This document shows positions 3,585-18,473 of a DNA stretch of 64,000 nt, in pieces; within the stretch, counting starts at the first letter, position 1, and each line of letters starts with the position of its first letter. The position numbers were made by a program, and so were the translations under genes. Under the pieces are notes generated by a model. It saw only the letters and a list, made by a program, of their open reading frames with translations. It was not told the origin of the DNA and ran no database searches. The DNA comes from a virus: the IMG/VR virus record IMGVR_UViG_3300025652_000041, positions 1 to 64,000 of that record. One strand, 5' to 3'.

Positions 3585-4112
3585 TTGAAGAGTGAATATG
3601 GTGTTCGAGAGATAACCATGAGTCAAGGATCAGATTGCATTAAGAGGTACCACTATCTTGGTACCCCATACATGGATGCACCGACCAATAAGTTTTATGG
3701 TTTGATCTACGGTGAGGATGTCGTGGGGGTGGTTCAGTTCAGTGAAGGGCATTGTGATCCGTCTTTCGTTCCAATCTACTTTGGAGTGGACTCCCCCACG
3801 ACCGGACTCTGGGACATGGCCAGACTGGTCGTATCCGACAAACACCAAAACGAATATAACATTACCTCGTGGTTTCTATCGCGAGCATTGAAGATGTTGA
3901 AACCTAGGTATGTGTTGACAATGGCAGACCGTAGGATGCACAATGGTACTATCTATGCGGCAACTGGGTTCGACTACTATGGACTTCAGAAGGGCAGGGA
4001 CAGAGCCATTCGGGGTTATGAGGACGTGGACTTTCATGTTTTCACTAAGTCATATGATCCTTCTATTAAATGCGTGTGGGATAAAATAAAGTTTGACAAG
4101 ACTGACTATTAA
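3585..4112 (+). CDS. Mom-like / GNAT-type DNA-modification acyltransferase
   Basis: 175 residues with the pattern seen in phage Mu Mom and related GNAT-fold proteins: IKRYHYLG near 19-26, VVGVVQFSEG near 46-55, LWDMARLVVSD near 75-85, NITSWFLSRALKML, then MADRRMHNGTIYAATGF near 113-129. Mom converts adenine in DNA to a carbamoylmethyl form; whether this protein modifies DNA is an inference. The TTG at 3585 is used as start because VREI before the HYLG block fits the family and GGAAG lies upstream; ATG 3618 would cut that part. It sits between genes 47 and 46, where T4 carries unrelated small genes, and the gene 46 promoter lies inside its 3' end. Confidence 0.6.
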   Translation: MKSEYGVREITMSQGSDCIKRYHYLGTPYMDAPTNKFYGLIYGEDVVGVVQFSEGHCDPSFVPIYFGVDSPTTGLWDMARLVVSDKHQNEYNITSWFLSRALKMLKPRYVLTMADRRMHNGTIYAATGFDYYGLQKGRDRAIRGYEDVDFHVFTKSYDPSIKCVWDKIKFDKTDY

Positions 4113-11551: not shown

Positions 11552-11606
11552 AAAGAAAAACGGGTGAGGTCATGAGACTTTGCCCCAACCTTTAAGGAAA
11601 TTTGTC

Positions 11607-12419
11607 ATGAACCTGATTTATCAATATTGGGACGGTGAAGTAAAAGAATCATGTCGTGCCGGTGTTATGGCCATGCAAGAATACGCAGAACGTATTGGTG
11701 CAGAGTACATCTTCGAAGAGAATCCTCAGTTTCTCAAAAATCATTTTGGTTACAACTTTGGTAACTACTCTCCGCACTACGGTGCATTCAAACCCATCTT
11801 CAATGAAGCATTCGATAGATACGATAAAATACTATTTGCAGATACTGATGTATTTCCGGTAGAAGGTCTAGAGGCAAACATCTTTGACGAATTTACCGGT
11901 GAGATTGGTATCTGTACAGAACCAGAACAGCCACGTATTCGTACTATTACCGGTGGTCGCATCACTCACGAACAAGACGAACGTTTCGCTCTTTTATGTA
12001 AGAATATGTTCGGAACGGACTTACCTAGAAACGAATATGGTATTGATGTTTTCAACACAGGAATGGTCTTGTATTCAAAAGAAGCACGTGTTAAGGCACG
12101 GAAGACTTGGTTAGATCCTTCAATATATATTGAGTTAGTTCGTAACATGGGACTAGACTCGTTCTATACTTGTGATCAACCATACCTACATGCAATGATG
12201 TTTGTACACGACTTTGAAGTACAACGTATGGATAATGGGTGGAACTCTTATATTCATTACAGTAGATATAAGGGTATAGAGGGAAGAGAACTCCATGACT
12301 GGAGAGATGATAACACCAAGTTTGTCCATGTCCAGTTTGCAGGAGCGGACAATCTGGATACCGAAACACATCGGAGAGTTGTAAACCTTCCCCAAGAACA
12401 ATGGAACCTACCTAAGTGA
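11607..12419 (+). CDS. Glycosyltransferase (GT8-like, GT-A fold)
   Basis: 270 residues. The DxD metal motif is in KILFADTDVFPVE near 73, preceded by the typical GAFKPIFNEAFDRYD segment. FNTGMVLYSK near 155 is the usual acceptor-side block. ATG 11607 has AAGGAAA upstream; earlier in-frame starts lack one. It is similar in layout to the enzyme at 28338. Likely transfers sugar to a phage or host glycan. It overlaps the next gene by 4 bases (GTGA). Confidence 0.72.
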   Translation: MNLIYQYWDGEVKESCRAGVMAMQEYAERIGAEYIFEENPQFLKNHFGYNFGNYSPHYGAFKPIFNEAFDRYDKILFADTDVFPVEGLEANIFDEFTGEIGICTEPEQPRIRTITGGRITHEQDERFALLCKNMFGTDLPRNEYGIDVFNTGMVLYSKEARVKARKTWLDPSIYIELVRNMGLDSFYTCDQPYLHAMMFVHDFEVQRMDNGWNSYIHYSRYKGIEGRELHDWRDDNTKFVHVQFAGADNLDTETHRRVVNLPQEQWNLPK

Positions 12420-13219
12420 TCGCATACCAGATAGTAATAAAAGACGATCCTGTATCCGAAGAATACGCACGTATATCACGTGAGTCTTTTCAACCTGCCA
12501 TTGATGCGGGTATAATAGAAGAGATTCGAACCTTTCATGCGATCACTCCAGACTCTGTAGATTTTGAAGAACATTTGTCAAGATATAATTGGCAAACTTC
12601 TTTAATGCAGGCTGATCTATATGGTAGTGCCCCTGATGACCATTCTCCTACCGAGAAGGCAGGAATGTGTTCTCATTGGGAACTTATGCGCATGGCGTCC
12701 GAGTCTGATGAGAGATTCTTAGTATTGGAACATGATACCTTTTTTAAAGAAGAATACTTAGATGTGTTGAAATCTATAATTAAGTTTATTGAAGAAATGG
12801 ATGTCTTGTATGGAAACATTGGTTTGTTTATGGGGTGTTATACCTTGGAGAAGGAAACCGCTGCATGGCAATACGATATGTTGACCCAAGGTAACTTCCC
12901 TATTAACTGTGGCCCATATTGCACACTACAGAGATTATATTCGACATACACTACACGTGTATTAAAACATGAAAATTATAGAGGTCGTGAGACAACTATT
13001 GTGCATCCTTGGCACGGGTGTGACACTCTGCATTTTGGTCGAAACATCCAAAAACCCTTCAACAAAGATGATCCCAATATTACATTCAATCCATGGAGAA
13101 CACCTACTACTCAGGTCATATCTAAGAAACTTTGTGTTACCCAAGATCATCACGGGTACAATCAAAAATACATAGATGCACCTTGGACTCGTCATCACTA
13201 TTTTCATATAATAGATTGA
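12416..13219 (+). CDS. Glycosyltransferase-like protein (GT25-type)
   Basis: 267 residues. Starts GTG in a GTGA overlap with the previous glycosyltransferase. CSHWELMRMASES followed by RFLVLEHDTFF resembles the GT25 block SHxxxW ... LEDD; the last acid is HD here rather than DD. NCGPYCTLQRLYS would contact substrate. The pair probably acts on one glycan. Lack of the strict DD motif makes the family call moderate. Confidence 0.6.
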   Translation: MIAYQIVIKDDPVSEEYARISRESFQPAIDAGIIEEIRTFHAITPDSVDFEEHLSRYNWQTSLMQADLYGSAPDDHSPTEKAGMCSHWELMRMASESDERFLVLEHDTFFKEEYLDVLKSIIKFIEEMDVLYGNIGLFMGCYTLEKETAAWQYDMLTQGNFPINCGPYCTLQRLYSTYTTRVLKHENYRGRETTIVHPWHGCDTLHFGRNIQKPFNKDDPNITFNPWRTPTTQVISKKLCVTQDHHGYNQKYIDAPWTRHHYFHIID

Positions 13220-13244
13220 CAAACTCCTCGTAATAATATATAAT
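13216..13244 (+). promoter_or_regulatory. sigma70-type promoter for the DruA-like gene
   Basis: TTGACA 13216-13221, 17-base spacer, TATAAT 13239-13244. The leader TTGAGATGAGGA is shared with the promoter at 34452. Confidence 0.88.
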
Positions 13245-13267
13245 GGTTACATTGAGATGAGGAATTT

Positions 13268-14404
13268 ATGTTACTAACTAAAGAAGATGCGTTCTACGCA
13301 GCAAATGTGTTTACGGAGTTCTTTTCGAACTTTGACCGTATTGACGACTATATGCGTCAAATCAAGATGGAACGTATGAAGACGTTCCCCACGGGTCTAC
13401 TTGGTATGGGCCCCGAAGATGACCTGTTCGATGATTTCGACATGCACCCCAATGATATGGAGTTTGTCATCGGTGATTGTCCACAGAACCAGTTCATGCA
13501 GTACATGGAGATCGTTACTTCTGCGCCCGTAGAATCTAGTATTCCGGGCAAACAAATGTTGAAGATTGTCAAAGAGAAGAACTCAGGTAAGATCTTTGGT
13601 ATGATTCGATTCGGTTCTCCTACTATCAACTCACGTCCTCGTAATGAGTGGTTGGGTAATCCTCTGGACTCGTACAATCCCGCAGTGATGAAAAGATTCA
13701 ACGAATCTGTGATTATGGGGTTTAACATCATTCCGGTGCAACCCGCAGCTTTCAATACCTTGGGTGGAAAACTGCTCGCAGGTATTTGTTGTTCCCACCA
13801 AATGAGAAAAGAAATTAATAAACGATATGGTTCTAACATTGCGATGTTCGAGACCACATCCTTATATGGGAGTTCAACATCTGCAAGTATGTATGACGGT
13901 ATGCGCCCATTCCTACGTTTTAACGGTTTGACAGACTCAAACTTCGCCCCACTGATCAACGATGATAACTTCCGTAGACTGAACGACTGGTTCAAGAAAC
14001 GGAACGGTGGTGATTACTTGGTACCTGCTGACGCATCTTCTCGTAAGTTGAAGACGCAGACCAAGATGGTATCCATTATCAAAACCTCTCTCAAGCAATA
14101 TGATGTGGATGCCTATGCGAAGTTCTGTCAGACCTTTAAAGATGCTAAGGGTTTGACCGAGAAGAAACGATCCTTCTTCTCTACCTATGGTTATGAGGCA
14201 CAGTCAGTCAAGGACTATCTGAATCTCAAGACCGATGAACTCAAACCCGCAGAGAACTTTGACCGATTCGAGATGGAGAACATCGTATCTTGGTGGCGCA
14301 AGAAGGCATCCAAGAGATTCGAACAGGTCAAGGCAGATGGTCGTCTACGTACCAAACTAGAAACGTGGAATACAAATGCGGATGAAATTGACATTATTCG
14401 TTAA
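13268..14404 (+). CDS. DruA-like (DUF4338-type) protein
   Basis: 378 residues, unknown role. Residues 95-225 follow the pattern of DUF4338, named after DruA of the Druantia defence system: a strand pair (KQMLKIVKEKNSGKIFG), RPRNEWLG near 123-130, LGGKLLAGICCSHQMRKEI near 165-183, then YGSNIAMFETTSLYGSS near 187-203 and MYDGMRPFLRFNGL. The ETxxxYGSS block replaces the ETFVDxxxxGTxY of DruA. The C-terminal 120 residues are helical and basic. It has its own promoter, lies just before gene 43, and its last 26 bases are repeated directly downstream. The link to DruA is my motif reading and needs a profile search. Confidence 0.5.
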   Translation: MLLTKEDAFYAANVFTEFFSNFDRIDDYMRQIKMERMKTFPTGLLGMGPEDDLFDDFDMHPNDMEFVIGDCPQNQFMQYMEIVTSAPVESSIPGKQMLKIVKEKNSGKIFGMIRFGSPTINSRPRNEWLGNPLDSYNPAVMKRFNESVIMGFNIIPVQPAAFNTLGGKLLAGICCSHQMRKEINKRYGSNIAMFETTSLYGSSTSASMYDGMRPFLRFNGLTDSNFAPLINDDNFRRLNDWFKKRNGGDYLVPADASSRKLKTQTKMVSIIKTSLKQYDVDAYAKFCQTFKDAKGLTEKKRSFFSTYGYEAQSVKDYLNLKTDELKPAENFDRFEMENIVSWWRKKASKRFEQVKADGRLRTKLETWNTNADEIDIIR

Positions 14405-14438
14405 ATAAACGTGGATGAAATTGACATTATTCGTTAAA
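14380..14438 (+). repeat. 26-bp direct repeat of the DruA-like gene 3' end
   Basis: The last codons and stop of the gene (14380-14405) recur exactly at 14413-14438, a 33-base period. Flanking bases are also partly alike. The second copy lies in the spacer before the promoter of the DUF262-HNH gene. Confidence 0.95.
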
Positions 14439-14445
14439 AAAAGTG

Positions 14446-14474
14446 TTGCCAAAGGCACTCTCTTTTGGTATTAT
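14446..14474 (+). promoter_or_regulatory. Promoter for the DUF262-HNH gene
   Basis: TTGCCA 14446-14451, 17-base spacer, TATTAT 14469-14474. About 80 bases of leader follow before the gene start. Confidence 0.7.
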
Positions 14475-14555
14475 ATATGTGTAGGTTGATAGAACGACTC
14501 ATGGTGACTCCTTCACTTCCTACACACCCTAACTAATTATATAAAGGTATATATT

Positions 14556-15911
14556 ATGAAAAATGTAACATACAAGTCTGTAGAATCAAAAACTTCAAAC
14601 ATTACTCTTGGTGCATACAAGAAGATGATTGATACGGTCTATGCTGATCTTAATTGTCAGTCGGTGACTCGATGGGAAGTACAGAATAAGCAATCATTCT
14701 TGGTTTCTCTTATTCTGAATACTGCACCATCCAAGTTCATCCTTGCGCATGTGAAGAGTTGTTACAATTCCGCTGAGATTTCAAATGACAAAAAGTCTAT
14801 GGAATATTTCACACAGTTCCTAAGTACATGTGACTACTTGAACCTCGACTCTAACAACCGCACTGTTACGATAGGCGAGTTTGTTGATGATAAGTTTGGT
14901 CTTCCTCTAGGGAACTATGTTATCGGTGATGAGGTTTACACCATAACTAAAGACACCTGCAACTATTCTACACTTCCTACTGGTATGAAGTGTATCCTAG
15001 ATTCGCGTAAATTGACTCTAGAGATTTACTTGAACGTCAATCAAGAAGACATTACTCGTTTGTTCTTAGTTGTTAATAGTGGTGTTGCGTTGAATGCGCC
15101 AGAATTGAGAAACCCGATTATATCTAATGTTGCGGAGGAAATCCGCAGTCTTGCTACAAAACACACTAAGACTTTCGTTAAGAATGTATTTTCACAAAAA
15201 GAAATTAACAGACGTAAAGTTGATGACTACTTATCTGGTCTTTTCATGATTTACATCGATGGACTGCAAAGTAAAATTACCGCCAAGTCTTTAGAAGAAA
15301 TGTATTATAACGAGAATGCTAACAAGTTAGTCAACAAGTTCTCTCGCGAGATGGATCGTTTCTTGAAAATTGTCGGTAAGAACATTTCCATCTTTAAACG
15401 TGAAAACGGATTGTTGGATTTGTTTGTGATCTACCTAGAACAGATCCGAGGTGGAAAGCGTATGATTGAACCAGAAACTTTCATTAAAGATTACATCGAT
15501 GTTCAGATTGATCTGATGAAAGATAAGACCGAATACTCATACAATGAGAACGGTCGTTCTGCAAATTTCTCTGAGTTGTTGCGTTCACGTGAGATTCGTT
15601 TTAACAATCTACGTAATAAGTTAATCTCTGAAAAGTTTGATGCGTCTAAATATTTCGTACAGTTAGATTCTCGTAGAGGTGGAACTGCCGAAGAAAAACT
15701 TATTGCTGCAAAAGATCAGGGATGGATAACTCCCGAAGGTGTAGAAATCCCATTAGAAGATGTCCTATCAACTGACTTCGAAATTGGTCACATCAAACCG
15801 TATGCTGATGGCGGCAAAACTAACCAAGACAACTTTGTGATACAAACCAAAGAAGATAACCGAAAACTGGGTAAGAATCCCGTGGTCATAGGGGATCTTG
15901 TTTCGTCATGA
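14556..15911 (+). CDS. DUF262-HNH endonuclease (GmrSD-like)
   Basis: 451 residues. The N-terminal half is a DUF262 (ParB-like NTPase) domain: RWEVQNKQSFLVSLILN near 39-55 and LFLVVNSGVALNAPELRNPI near 168-187, the family's ElRN box. The C-terminus has an HNH nuclease: FEIGHIKPYADGGKTNQDNF, catalytic His412 with Asn near 424-427. DUF262 with HNH is the layout of GmrS/GmrD type IV enzymes that cut modified DNA, and of some other defence nucleases. The HNH here is short. It has its own promoter and an overlapping terminator. In a phage it could attack competing phages, act as a homing nuclease, or serve superinfection exclusion. Confidence 0.78.
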   Translation: MKNVTYKSVESKTSNITLGAYKKMIDTVYADLNCQSVTRWEVQNKQSFLVSLILNTAPSKFILAHVKSCYNSAEISNDKKSMEYFTQFLSTCDYLNLDSNNRTVTIGEFVDDKFGLPLGNYVIGDEVYTITKDTCNYSTLPTGMKCILDSRKLTLEIYLNVNQEDITRLFLVVNSGVALNAPELRNPIISNVAEEIRSLATKHTKTFVKNVFSQKEINRRKVDDYLSGLFMIYIDGLQSKITAKSLEEMYYNENANKLVNKFSREMDRFLKIVGKNISIFKRENGLLDLFVIYLEQIRGGKRMIEPETFIKDYIDVQIDLMKDKTEYSYNENGRSANFSELLRSREIRFNNLRNKLISEKFDASKYFVQLDSRRGGTAEEKLIAAKDQGWITPEGVEIPLEDVLSTDFEIGHIKPYADGGKTNQDNFVIQTKEDNRKLGKNPVVIGDLVSS

Positions 15912-15919
15912 TAAATGCA

Positions 15920-15947
15920 AAGGGGGTTGACAACAACCCCTTTTTTT
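15920..15947 (+). terminator. Rho-independent terminator fused to the gene 43 promoter
   Basis: GGGGTTG (15923-15929) pairs with CAACCCC (15934-15940) around ACAA, followed by seven T. The -35 element of the next promoter lies inside the hairpin. Confidence 0.9.
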
Positions 15948-15955
15948 GTTATACT
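15927..15955 (+). promoter_or_regulatory. sigma70-type promoter for gene 43
   Basis: TTGACA 15927-15932, 17-base spacer containing the terminator T run, TATACT 15950-15955, 28 bases before the polymerase start. Confidence 0.85.
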
Positions 15956-15983: not shown

Positions 15984-18473
15984 ATGTCCAATTTTTATAC
16001 ATCGGTTGTCCGTTTTGGCAACAAACTCCTGTACCGTGGTTTCGAGAACGGCAAAGAAGTAAAACGCAGAATTCCTTTCAAACCTACTCTGTTTATGTCC
16101 GGTACCGCAGAACAATCTGATGGTTGGACTACACTTGACGGACTACCCGTACAACCAGTAACCTTTGACTCTATGTCCGAGGCGAAGGACTTCGACAAAC
16201 GTTACGAACATGTCTCCAACTTTACTATTGCAGGCAATACTAATTATGTTGCCCAATTCCTTGGAGAAGTCTTCCCCGATAAGATTGACTATGACCGTAG
16301 TCTCATCAAGACTGCGAACATCGATATCGAGGTTTTCTCTCAGGATGGTTTCCCTACTCCTGGCGCGGCCGCATATCCTGTTACCGCAATCACTATGCGT
16401 CAAGACTGTGGTACGTACTGGGTCTGGGGTTGTCAAGACTATACCGTATCTCGTGATGATGTACTCTATATCAAGTGTGACAACGAAATAGATCTACTCC
16501 AAAAGTTTGTACGTCAGTTCGAACAATACGCCCCCAATATTATTACTGGTTGGAACACACGGTTCTTCGATATTCCGTATCTGGTTAACCGTATGACTAA
16601 ACTTCTCGGTGACGATACCATGGCGAAACGTATGTCTCCGTGGGGTCTTATCCGTGAACGTAATACTACCATCAACGGTAAACCCAACCAAGAGTTTGTC
16701 CTTGAGGGTATCGAACAACTTGACTACCTCGAAGTCTTCAAGAAGTTCACCTACAATACTCTGGGTCAACAAGAATCCTATCGACTAGACCATATCGCCC
16801 ACGTAGTACTGGGTGAACGCAAACTATCCTATGAGGAACACGGTTCTCTGTTTGCCCTGTATGAGAATGACTTCCAAAAGTTCATTGACTATAACATCAA
16901 AGACGTTGAGTTGGTACATCTCCTCGATGTTAAACTTGATTTGATTTCATTAATCCTGACCATGGCCTACAAGGCGGGTGTGAACTATAACGATACTCTG
17001 GGTACGACTGCTATCTGGGACACCATCATCTACCGACTTCTGAATAAGAACAAGGTTGCGGTTCCTAAGAAGATTGAGAAACCCAAGACCGCATATCCTG
17101 GCGGTTACGTGAAAGACCCACAGGTTGGTTCGCACGACTGGGTAACCTCATTCGATTTGGCATCTCTGTATCCTAACATCATTGTACAATACAATATGTC
17201 TCCGGAGACGGTAATGGACGGATTCGTTAGCAATGTCTCGGTCGATAAGTTTCTGGACGGTTCGATTGACCTGACTGACCAGAATCTAGATTATGCTCTT
17301 GCACCTACTGGTGTTAGATTCACCCAAGATAGAGAAGGTGTGATTCCCATAATCATTAAACAGTATTACTCGGAACGTAGAGTAATCAAGAAGAAGATGT
17401 TGGAATGTCAACAGGAGATGCAGACTAACCCATCTAAAACTCTAGAGTATACCATAACTTCTCTGAATAATCAACAGATGGCAATTAAGATTCTTATGAA
17501 TTCACTTTATGGTGCCCTTGGGAATCGTTGGTTCAGATATTTCGACCAAAGAGTTGCAGAGTCCATTACTCTTGCTGGTCAACTTGCAATCAAATGGGCG
17601 GAGAGAACAGTAAACAATGAAATGCAAAAACTTCTTAAAACGGATGAAGACTACGTTGTGGCAATTGACACCGATTCTGTTTATCTTCGTATGGGGGATC
17701 TCGTTGATAAGTTTTCTCCTAGTAATCCGGTAAAGTTTCTCGACAAGATCTGTTCGGAACACTTCGAGAAACTCCTTGTAAAGTCTTATGCGGATATGGC
17801 ACTAGCGACCAATGCCTATGAGAATCGCATGGAGATGGAACGGGAGGTAATCGCTGACCGTGGTATCTGGATGGCCAAGAAACGTTACATCCTGAACGTC
17901 CACAATAACGAAGGTGTCCAGTACGCAGAACCCAAACTCAAGATGATGGGTATCGAGGCGATCAAGTCCAGTACTCCGCAGGTTGTCCGTGACAAGTTCA
18001 AGGAGATATTTCGGGTCATCGTAGAAGGTACCGAAGTAGACACACAACGATACATTTCGGACTTTAAGTCCCATTTTAAGACCTTACCGCCCGAAGCGGT
18101 TTCGTTCCCTCGGGGTGTATCGGATGTGACCAAATGGTCTGACCGTAAGACTGTGTACAAGAAAGGCACTCCTATCCATGTTCGTGGTGCGTTGATGTTC
18201 AACAAAGCACTCAAGGAAAGTTCTCTGACCAAACGGTACGAGACTATCAAGAATGGTGAGAAGATTAAGTTTTGTTACCTGAAGATGCCTAATCCAATCG
18301 GTGAGAATGTAATCTCTTATCCACTGAACCTTCCCCGTGAACTTGGACTGGATAAATATATCAATTATGATATGATGTTCAACAAAACATTCCTTGACCC
18401 ACTCACTCCCATTCTGGATGCGGTTGGTTGGGATTCTGAACCTCAGGCGTCACTAGAGGATTTCTTTGGTTGA
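15984..18473 (+). CDS. 43: gp43, family B DNA polymerase
   Basis: Replicative polymerase with proofreading exonuclease. Exo I (NIDIEVF) near 113, Exo II ([13 protein letters not shown]) near 187, Exo III (YNIKDVELV) near 302. Polymerase motif A (DLASLYPNI) near 390, motif B ([12 protein letters not shown]) near 500, motif C (DTDSVY) near 561. The C-terminus SLEDFFG is a clamp-binding peptide like that of T4. At 829 residues it is shorter than T4 gp43 (898), as in other marine T4-like phages. No intron or split is seen. Confidence 0.97.

Follow-up and report, generated by a model that had tools for sequence, protein, structure and literature searches.

Several described systems resemble parts of the locus analysed here. 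DruA of the type I Druantia defence system belongs to Pfam family PF14236 (DUF4338), and DUF4338 has been described as a GNAT (PMC10853773). Mom of phage Mu (PF25680), of about 200 amino acids, is phage-encoded, has a predicted GNAT-type fold and is presumed to act on phage DNA. GmrSD, BrxU and SspE share a ParB/Srx-like N-terminal region followed by HNH. The DGQQR motif is nearly 100% conserved in GmrS (PMC4619093). We analysed the first 64,000 nucleotides (the window) of the IMG/VR virus record IMGVR_UViG_3300025652_000041, a 91.9-kb record of a marine T4-like phage whose nearest isolate by gp43 is the Kyanoviridae phage C48C1 (70% identical). Its interval 13216-15955, from the promoter of gene A to the promoter of gp43, holds a DruA-like gene (A) and a gene for a putative DNA nuclease (B). 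On balance, it appears somewhat probable that A is a DNA-modifying GNAT that displaces Dam and that B is an exchangeable nuclease beside A, directed against host or competing phage DNA. Sequence analysis established the linkage of A and B, their joint movement, the swapping of partners next to A, the near-exclusion of A and the Dam-type D12 methyltransferase (PF02086) together with their shared slot, and the absence of RAATTY sites from phages in which A has an EcoRI-like partner. The two genes and their right flank are as follows.

13268-14404, plus strand: gene A, DruA/DUF4338 family, 378 amino acids, with a PF14236 match, a phrog_19197 match and a predicted GNAT fold
14556-15911, plus strand: gene B, putative DNA nuclease, 451 amino acids, with a ParB/Srx (DUF262-like) N-terminal region and a C-terminal HNH
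15984-18473, plus strand: gp43 DNA polymerase, the constant right flank of the partner slot

We examined whether A shares its genomic position with D12, which is found in most related cyanophages: the D12 query matches 413 cyanophage records, compared to 461 with gp43 (about 90%). The order gp44-x-A-gp62-regA was found in S-SM2, S-SSM7, S-CAM9, S-PRM1, S-T4 and S-SRM01, with A likewise between gp44 and gp62 in Sf-CH5, and the order gp44-x-D12-gp62-regA was found in Bellamy and P-HM1. Neither A nor B is carried by phage C48C1, where nothing fills the GTb-gp43 junction and gp43 is directly followed by a D12 gene. PF02086 was detected in 1 of 15 A-positive isolate genomes and in 0 of 14 A-positive IMG/VR records, compared to 5 of 6 A-negative genomes, three of these six having been chosen via D12 or nuclease searches. 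Fisher tests of A against D12 gave p values from 8e-8 (shrunken background) to 5e-12, with shared ancestry uncorrected. In the genomes compared, A and D12 are thus near-exclusive and share one slot (gp44-gp62 or beside gp43), although they are unrelated in fold and sequence.

Gene A matches the DruA profile above its curated cut-off (E = 1.6e-8; 34.5 bits, cut-off 27; residues 79-198), as do all 67 of its 67 aligned relatives, so that the DruA (DUF4338)-like assignment, on which the original prediction had staked itself, holds. It also matches phrog_19197 (E = 1.5e-149), a PHROG annotated as being of unknown function. The structure model of A has a predicted local distance difference test score (pLDDT) of 89.6, and most of the PDB structures ranked highest by fold are GNAT acyltransferases (best E 0.015). 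Among the viral fold matches are several GNATs and also the Mom protein from Salmonella phage FSL SP-031 (E = 3.7e-3, probability 1.0). One record labels a homologue of A 'methylcarbamoylase mom'. Sequence searches of the PDB with A and with B gave no meaningful homologue. Because of the predicted GNAT fold and the structural match to Mom, A is probably a DNA-modifying acyltransferase. Compared to Mom of phage Mu, A is longer and has a long C-terminal helical part of its own, and there is no profile-profile similarity between the two. Compared to DruA of Druantia, A belongs to the same family but aligns only to profile positions 67-180 of 297 and lies in a replication-gene context, not in a defence island. 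No DruE-type helicase was found among the neighbours of A (glycosyltransferases, B and gp43), the open reading frames of the window having been read by eye and selected ones profiled, which argues against membership in a Druantia system. The slot and the phyletic data are better explained by a DNA-modification enzyme replacing Dam than by an imported defence gene. A separate, true Mom-family gene is present in the window at 3585-4112 (plus strand; PF25680, E = 2.3e-13), between gp47 and gp46; its INPHARED homologues are in 15 mycobacteriophages and one Roseobacter phage, and in no T4-like isolate. A further protein, closer to DruA (E about 1e-19 to 1e-24), occurs in pelagiphages (L139, HTVC008M), and Pelagibacter phage HTVC008M (KC465899) carries two DruA-family genes.

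We then looked at the association of A with B. Gene A is much commoner than B: a single scan gave at least 590 stretches with it, and 31 INPHARED records have it. Its usual neighbours are gp43, gp44 or gp62, and there is often no nuclease alongside. Gene A was found directly upstream in all 12 of the 12 IMG/VR B loci with upstream sequence. In L010-L014, an A+B pair, 78% identical, stands as a cassette by itself on the opposite strand, flanked by a tail-tube-like gene and gp23, which shows that the two genes move together. B-like genes are present in four INPHARED records (S-SSM7 twice, the near-identical S-SSM6a, and Sf-FS3), all of them A-positive, with some 100 kb separating B from A in S-SSM7 and Sf-FS3. 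Taken together, the gene arrangements show A and B to be a genuine unit, and a possible dependence between them is supported by this linkage. The expectation that both genes would be present or both absent is not borne out, since A is frequent without B. In the record of L010 (L258-L263), CGCG was found 0 times with 145 expected and AGATCT 0 times with 43 expected. In L134 (8118-9353), the partner in the gp23 cassette resembles, by eye and with no Pfam match, a fusion of an N-terminal GIY-YIG part with a ParB-like one.

The gene that follows A varies between phages, and can be B, a ParB-like gene, a ParB-like gene with one for a 182-amino-acid PD-(D/E)XK-like protein, an HNH-HTH gene with an EcoRI-family gene (PF02963, E = 2.4e-18), or the gene for a GmrSD_N protein (L068; PF03235, E = 5e-7); the ParB-like and PD-(D/E)XK-like labels are motif readings of proteins without a Pfam match above the cut-off. 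At the DNA level, the window and L017 are 99.0% identical in A, 67.9% in B and 98.8% in gp43, while L018 retains A (95.4%) and gp43 (97.1%) around unrelated partner genes and L025 is 99.9% identical in B, 93.3% in A and 96.5% in gp43. The swap boundaries are sharp and lie on the A side and on the gp43 side; by this comparison, the site after A is an exchange slot between constant flanks. Searches seeded on the partners, run to avoid seeding on A, found A directly upstream in 14 of 14 EcoRI-like loci with upstream sequence and in 17 of 17 close ParB1 loci. ParB1 was rejected as an exclusive partner of A for the wider family, whose homologues of 47% identity or less mostly occur without A. A TGATCA specificity of the PD-(D/E)XK partner was also rejected, as this word is absent from G015/G016 (0/64) but present in the homologue carriers L093 and L115. 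Several A-positive phages with a linked ParB1 (L182, L191, L264-L270, L285-L294) show a strong depletion of GATC, to between 0 and 0.3 of the expected count, and this depletion is absent from B-positive phages, EcoRI-like-positive phages and the ParB1-positive record G009.

Such exchange could also arise if B were a selfish, homing-like HNH gene, or one of a succession of these, colonising the junction after an A gene that is simply an unrelated conserved member of the replication cluster. The sharp boundaries and the near-identity of B in L025 beside more divergent A and gp43 are in line with this, as are the small HNH-HTH protein in the slot of L097 and a homing-type gene, GIY-YIG/NUMOD3, at 376-921 of the window (sub-threshold Pfam matches). 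We nevertheless consider it unlikely, since A and B moved jointly to the opposite-strand site beside gp23, partners of the EcoRI family or with ParB alone are no homing enzymes, and in S-SSM7 and Sf-FS3, which do have A, the B-like genes are not linked to it.

The EcoRI-like partner, a real member of its family that fills the slot in other phages and is not the partner in the window, allowed for an analysis of site content. GAATTC is absent from all eight records with the EcoRI-like gene. When all NAATTN words were examined in these carriers, GAATTC, AAATTT and GAATTT/AAATTC were all at zero, where 274 RAATTY sites would be expected under a first-order model and about 170 when scaled to the levels of other phages, and GAATTA, GAATTG, AAATTA, CAATTG and TAATTA were near their usual level. 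RAATTY is missing from 16 of 16 loci with the EcoRI-like gene (carriers L097, L232-L244 and their records), compared to 0 of 175 control loci of at least 6 kb. In S-CREM2, which has an EcoRI-like gene and D12 and no A, GAATTC occurs 8 times compared to 18 expected. Unlike in the known EcoRI family, the carrier genomes of the A-linked member are free of sites, and no adenine methyltransferase was found in their contigs. The site of the A-linked nuclease would then be RAATTY, consistent with the EcoRI family, and the complete lack of this site indicates that the nuclease is active, that it acts on the DNA lineage of its own carriers and that the carriers protect themselves by site avoidance, not by A. 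Host restriction, as another possible cause of the avoidance, would have to coincide with the EcoRI-like gene in every carrier. The zero RAATTY count led us to reject A as the cognate modification of this partner, and likewise a restriction-modification system in which A modifies and the EcoRI-like protein restricts the same site.

The domain assignment of B relies on resemblance. It gave no match to the DUF262/GmrSD_N profile (PF03235) up to E = 1, and its match to HNH PF01844 is sub-threshold (E = 0.013, residues 404-439); in its homologue L141 (phage Sf-FS3), HNH_4 is above the cut-off (E = 1.9e-6), and the H-N-N motif of B (H412, N426, N435) is conserved in the homologue alignment. At the position of the GmrS DGQQR motif, all B homologues aligned there have an invariant LDSNNRT (DSNNR being residues 98-102). 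The best fold match of the B model is BrxU, although weak (E 0.24), with PadC and SspE ranking lower. A search of bacterial genome contigs, by the method used, found no bacterial relatives of B. B is therefore described as DUF262-like plus HNH and as a putative DNA nuclease, not as a GmrSD member: it shares with GmrSD, BrxU and SspE the ParB/Srx-like N-terminal region followed by HNH, but differs in the DSNNR motif, in an HNH that resembles PF01844/PF13395 and not DUF1524, and in its phage setting, where it is linked to a DruA-like gene. Of the 'DUF262-HNH nuclease of GmrSD type' first suggested for B, the C-terminal HNH motif was recovered and the GmrSD type was not.

These features bear on the idea, put forward in the original prediction, that B, resembling GmrSD and BrxU, is a modification-dependent nuclease of a type IV-like kind and attacks the modified DNA of rivals independently of A. 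The DUF262-like N-terminal region, the fold match to BrxU, the true GmrSD_N partner in L068 and the lack of a short site avoided solely in B-positive genomes, which is what a nuclease sparing plain DNA should produce, agree with it. We regard it as improbable all the same, given DSNNR in place of DGQQR, an HNH motif with GH and not (E/D)H, the missing PF03235 match and the fact that, wherever this is visible, B is accompanied by A. Less probable still is that A acetylates a host or phage protein and is linked to nucleases by a shared insertion hot spot only, since this accords with the usual protein or small-molecule substrates of GNATs, the lack of an A-Mom profile match and the many cyanophage A genes without a nuclease neighbour, but not with the exactness with which A replaces a DNA adenine methyltransferase, both in position and phyletically, or with the partner-seeded linkage (14/14 for EcoRI-like, 12/12 for B).

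We therefore favour A as a DNA-modifying GNAT that displaces Dam, with B as its exchangeable nuclease partner. A would work like Mom on DNA, the modified base most likely being adenine, and would do in this lineage what the Dam-type D12 enzyme does in most related cyanophages. B would be an active nuclease in the swap slot directly downstream of A, cutting host or competing phage DNA, and the phage would be spared either by the mark of A or by the absence of the site of B. The A+B cassette thus looks like a viral mark-and-cut kit against host or rival DNA. Of the interference module originally proposed, an A-linked slot with DNA nucleases survives, including an EcoRI-like one whose carriers have been purged of its sites, in keeping with interference, while B as a GmrSD-type enzyme is not supported. 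Several observations weigh against the favoured reading. The GNAT fold matches of A are weak, and A showed no profile match to the Mom family PF25680 (hhalign probability 0.8%). The B model is poor overall (pLDDT 60, residues 10-165 being better). S-SCSM2R carries both A and D12, and most of the phages compared are related, so the counts are not independent. The distant ParB1 homologues mostly lack A, and A does not protect RAATTY, so it does not serve all partners as their cognate modification. Finally, no short or gapped palindrome was found to be avoided solely in B-positive genomes, a result compatible with modification-dependent action, with protection by A or with a long site.

As originally described, the two genes lie between glycosyltransferase genes and the DNA polymerase gene, at coordinates that agree, and a promoter-like site was found by pattern match for each of them. 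The remaining features of the locus are as follows.

11580-12419 and 12416-13219: glycosyltransferase-like genes, the 5′ flank of gene A
13216-13244, plus strand: promoter of gene A, sigma-70-like TTGACA-17-TATAAT, 12 of 12 consensus positions, by pattern match only
14374-14439, plus strand: 33-nucleotide tandem direct repeat that copies the gene A 3′ end (found in L016, not in L025 or L017)
14446-14474, plus strand: promoter-like site of gene B, 10 of 12 consensus positions, overlapping the inverted repeat TTGCCAAAG...TTTTGGTATTAT
14481-14525, plus strand: leader of gene B, with a conserved GAACGACTCATGGTGACTCCTTC within a GTAGG...CCTAC hairpin
15919-15944, plus strand: terminator-like hairpin 3′ of gene B, overlapping the gp43 promoter
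15927-15955, plus strand: gp43 promoter-like site, 11 of 12 consensus positions

The leader motif of B (23 nucleotides, predicted hairpin) is restricted in IMG/VR to B-carrying contigs. The tandem duplication lies at the slot boundary and is possibly a recombination scar. A CCAAA...TTTGG inverted repeat overlaps the promoter at the A-partner junction in the window and in L008, L010, L018 and L022, also where the partners are different, and may be a candidate shared operator.

It is quite possible, though we would place it a little short of an even chance, that the picture extends further: DruA-like GNATs would be a phage DNA base-modification family that has displaced Dam in numerous marine T4-like phages, and the position following A would be a dedicated 'interference slot' of exchanged nucleases (DUF262-HNH, ParB with PD-(D/E)XK, HNH, EcoRI-like) for use against the DNA of the host or of rivals, while the phage itself escapes through the A mark or through site purging. 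The carrier genomes cleared of RAATTY would record in themselves, in readable form, the specificity of a restriction enzyme that is encoded by a phage and has no partner methyltransferase. For the DruA/DUF4338 family, common in marine T4-like phages and annotated as being of unknown function, a function in DNA modification, replacing Dam, is thereby proposed; for A, the proposal draws on positional and phyletic replacement and is testable on the existing isolates S-SSM7, HTVC008M and S-SM2. If it is true, the role of DruA in Druantia may be DNA acyl-modification.

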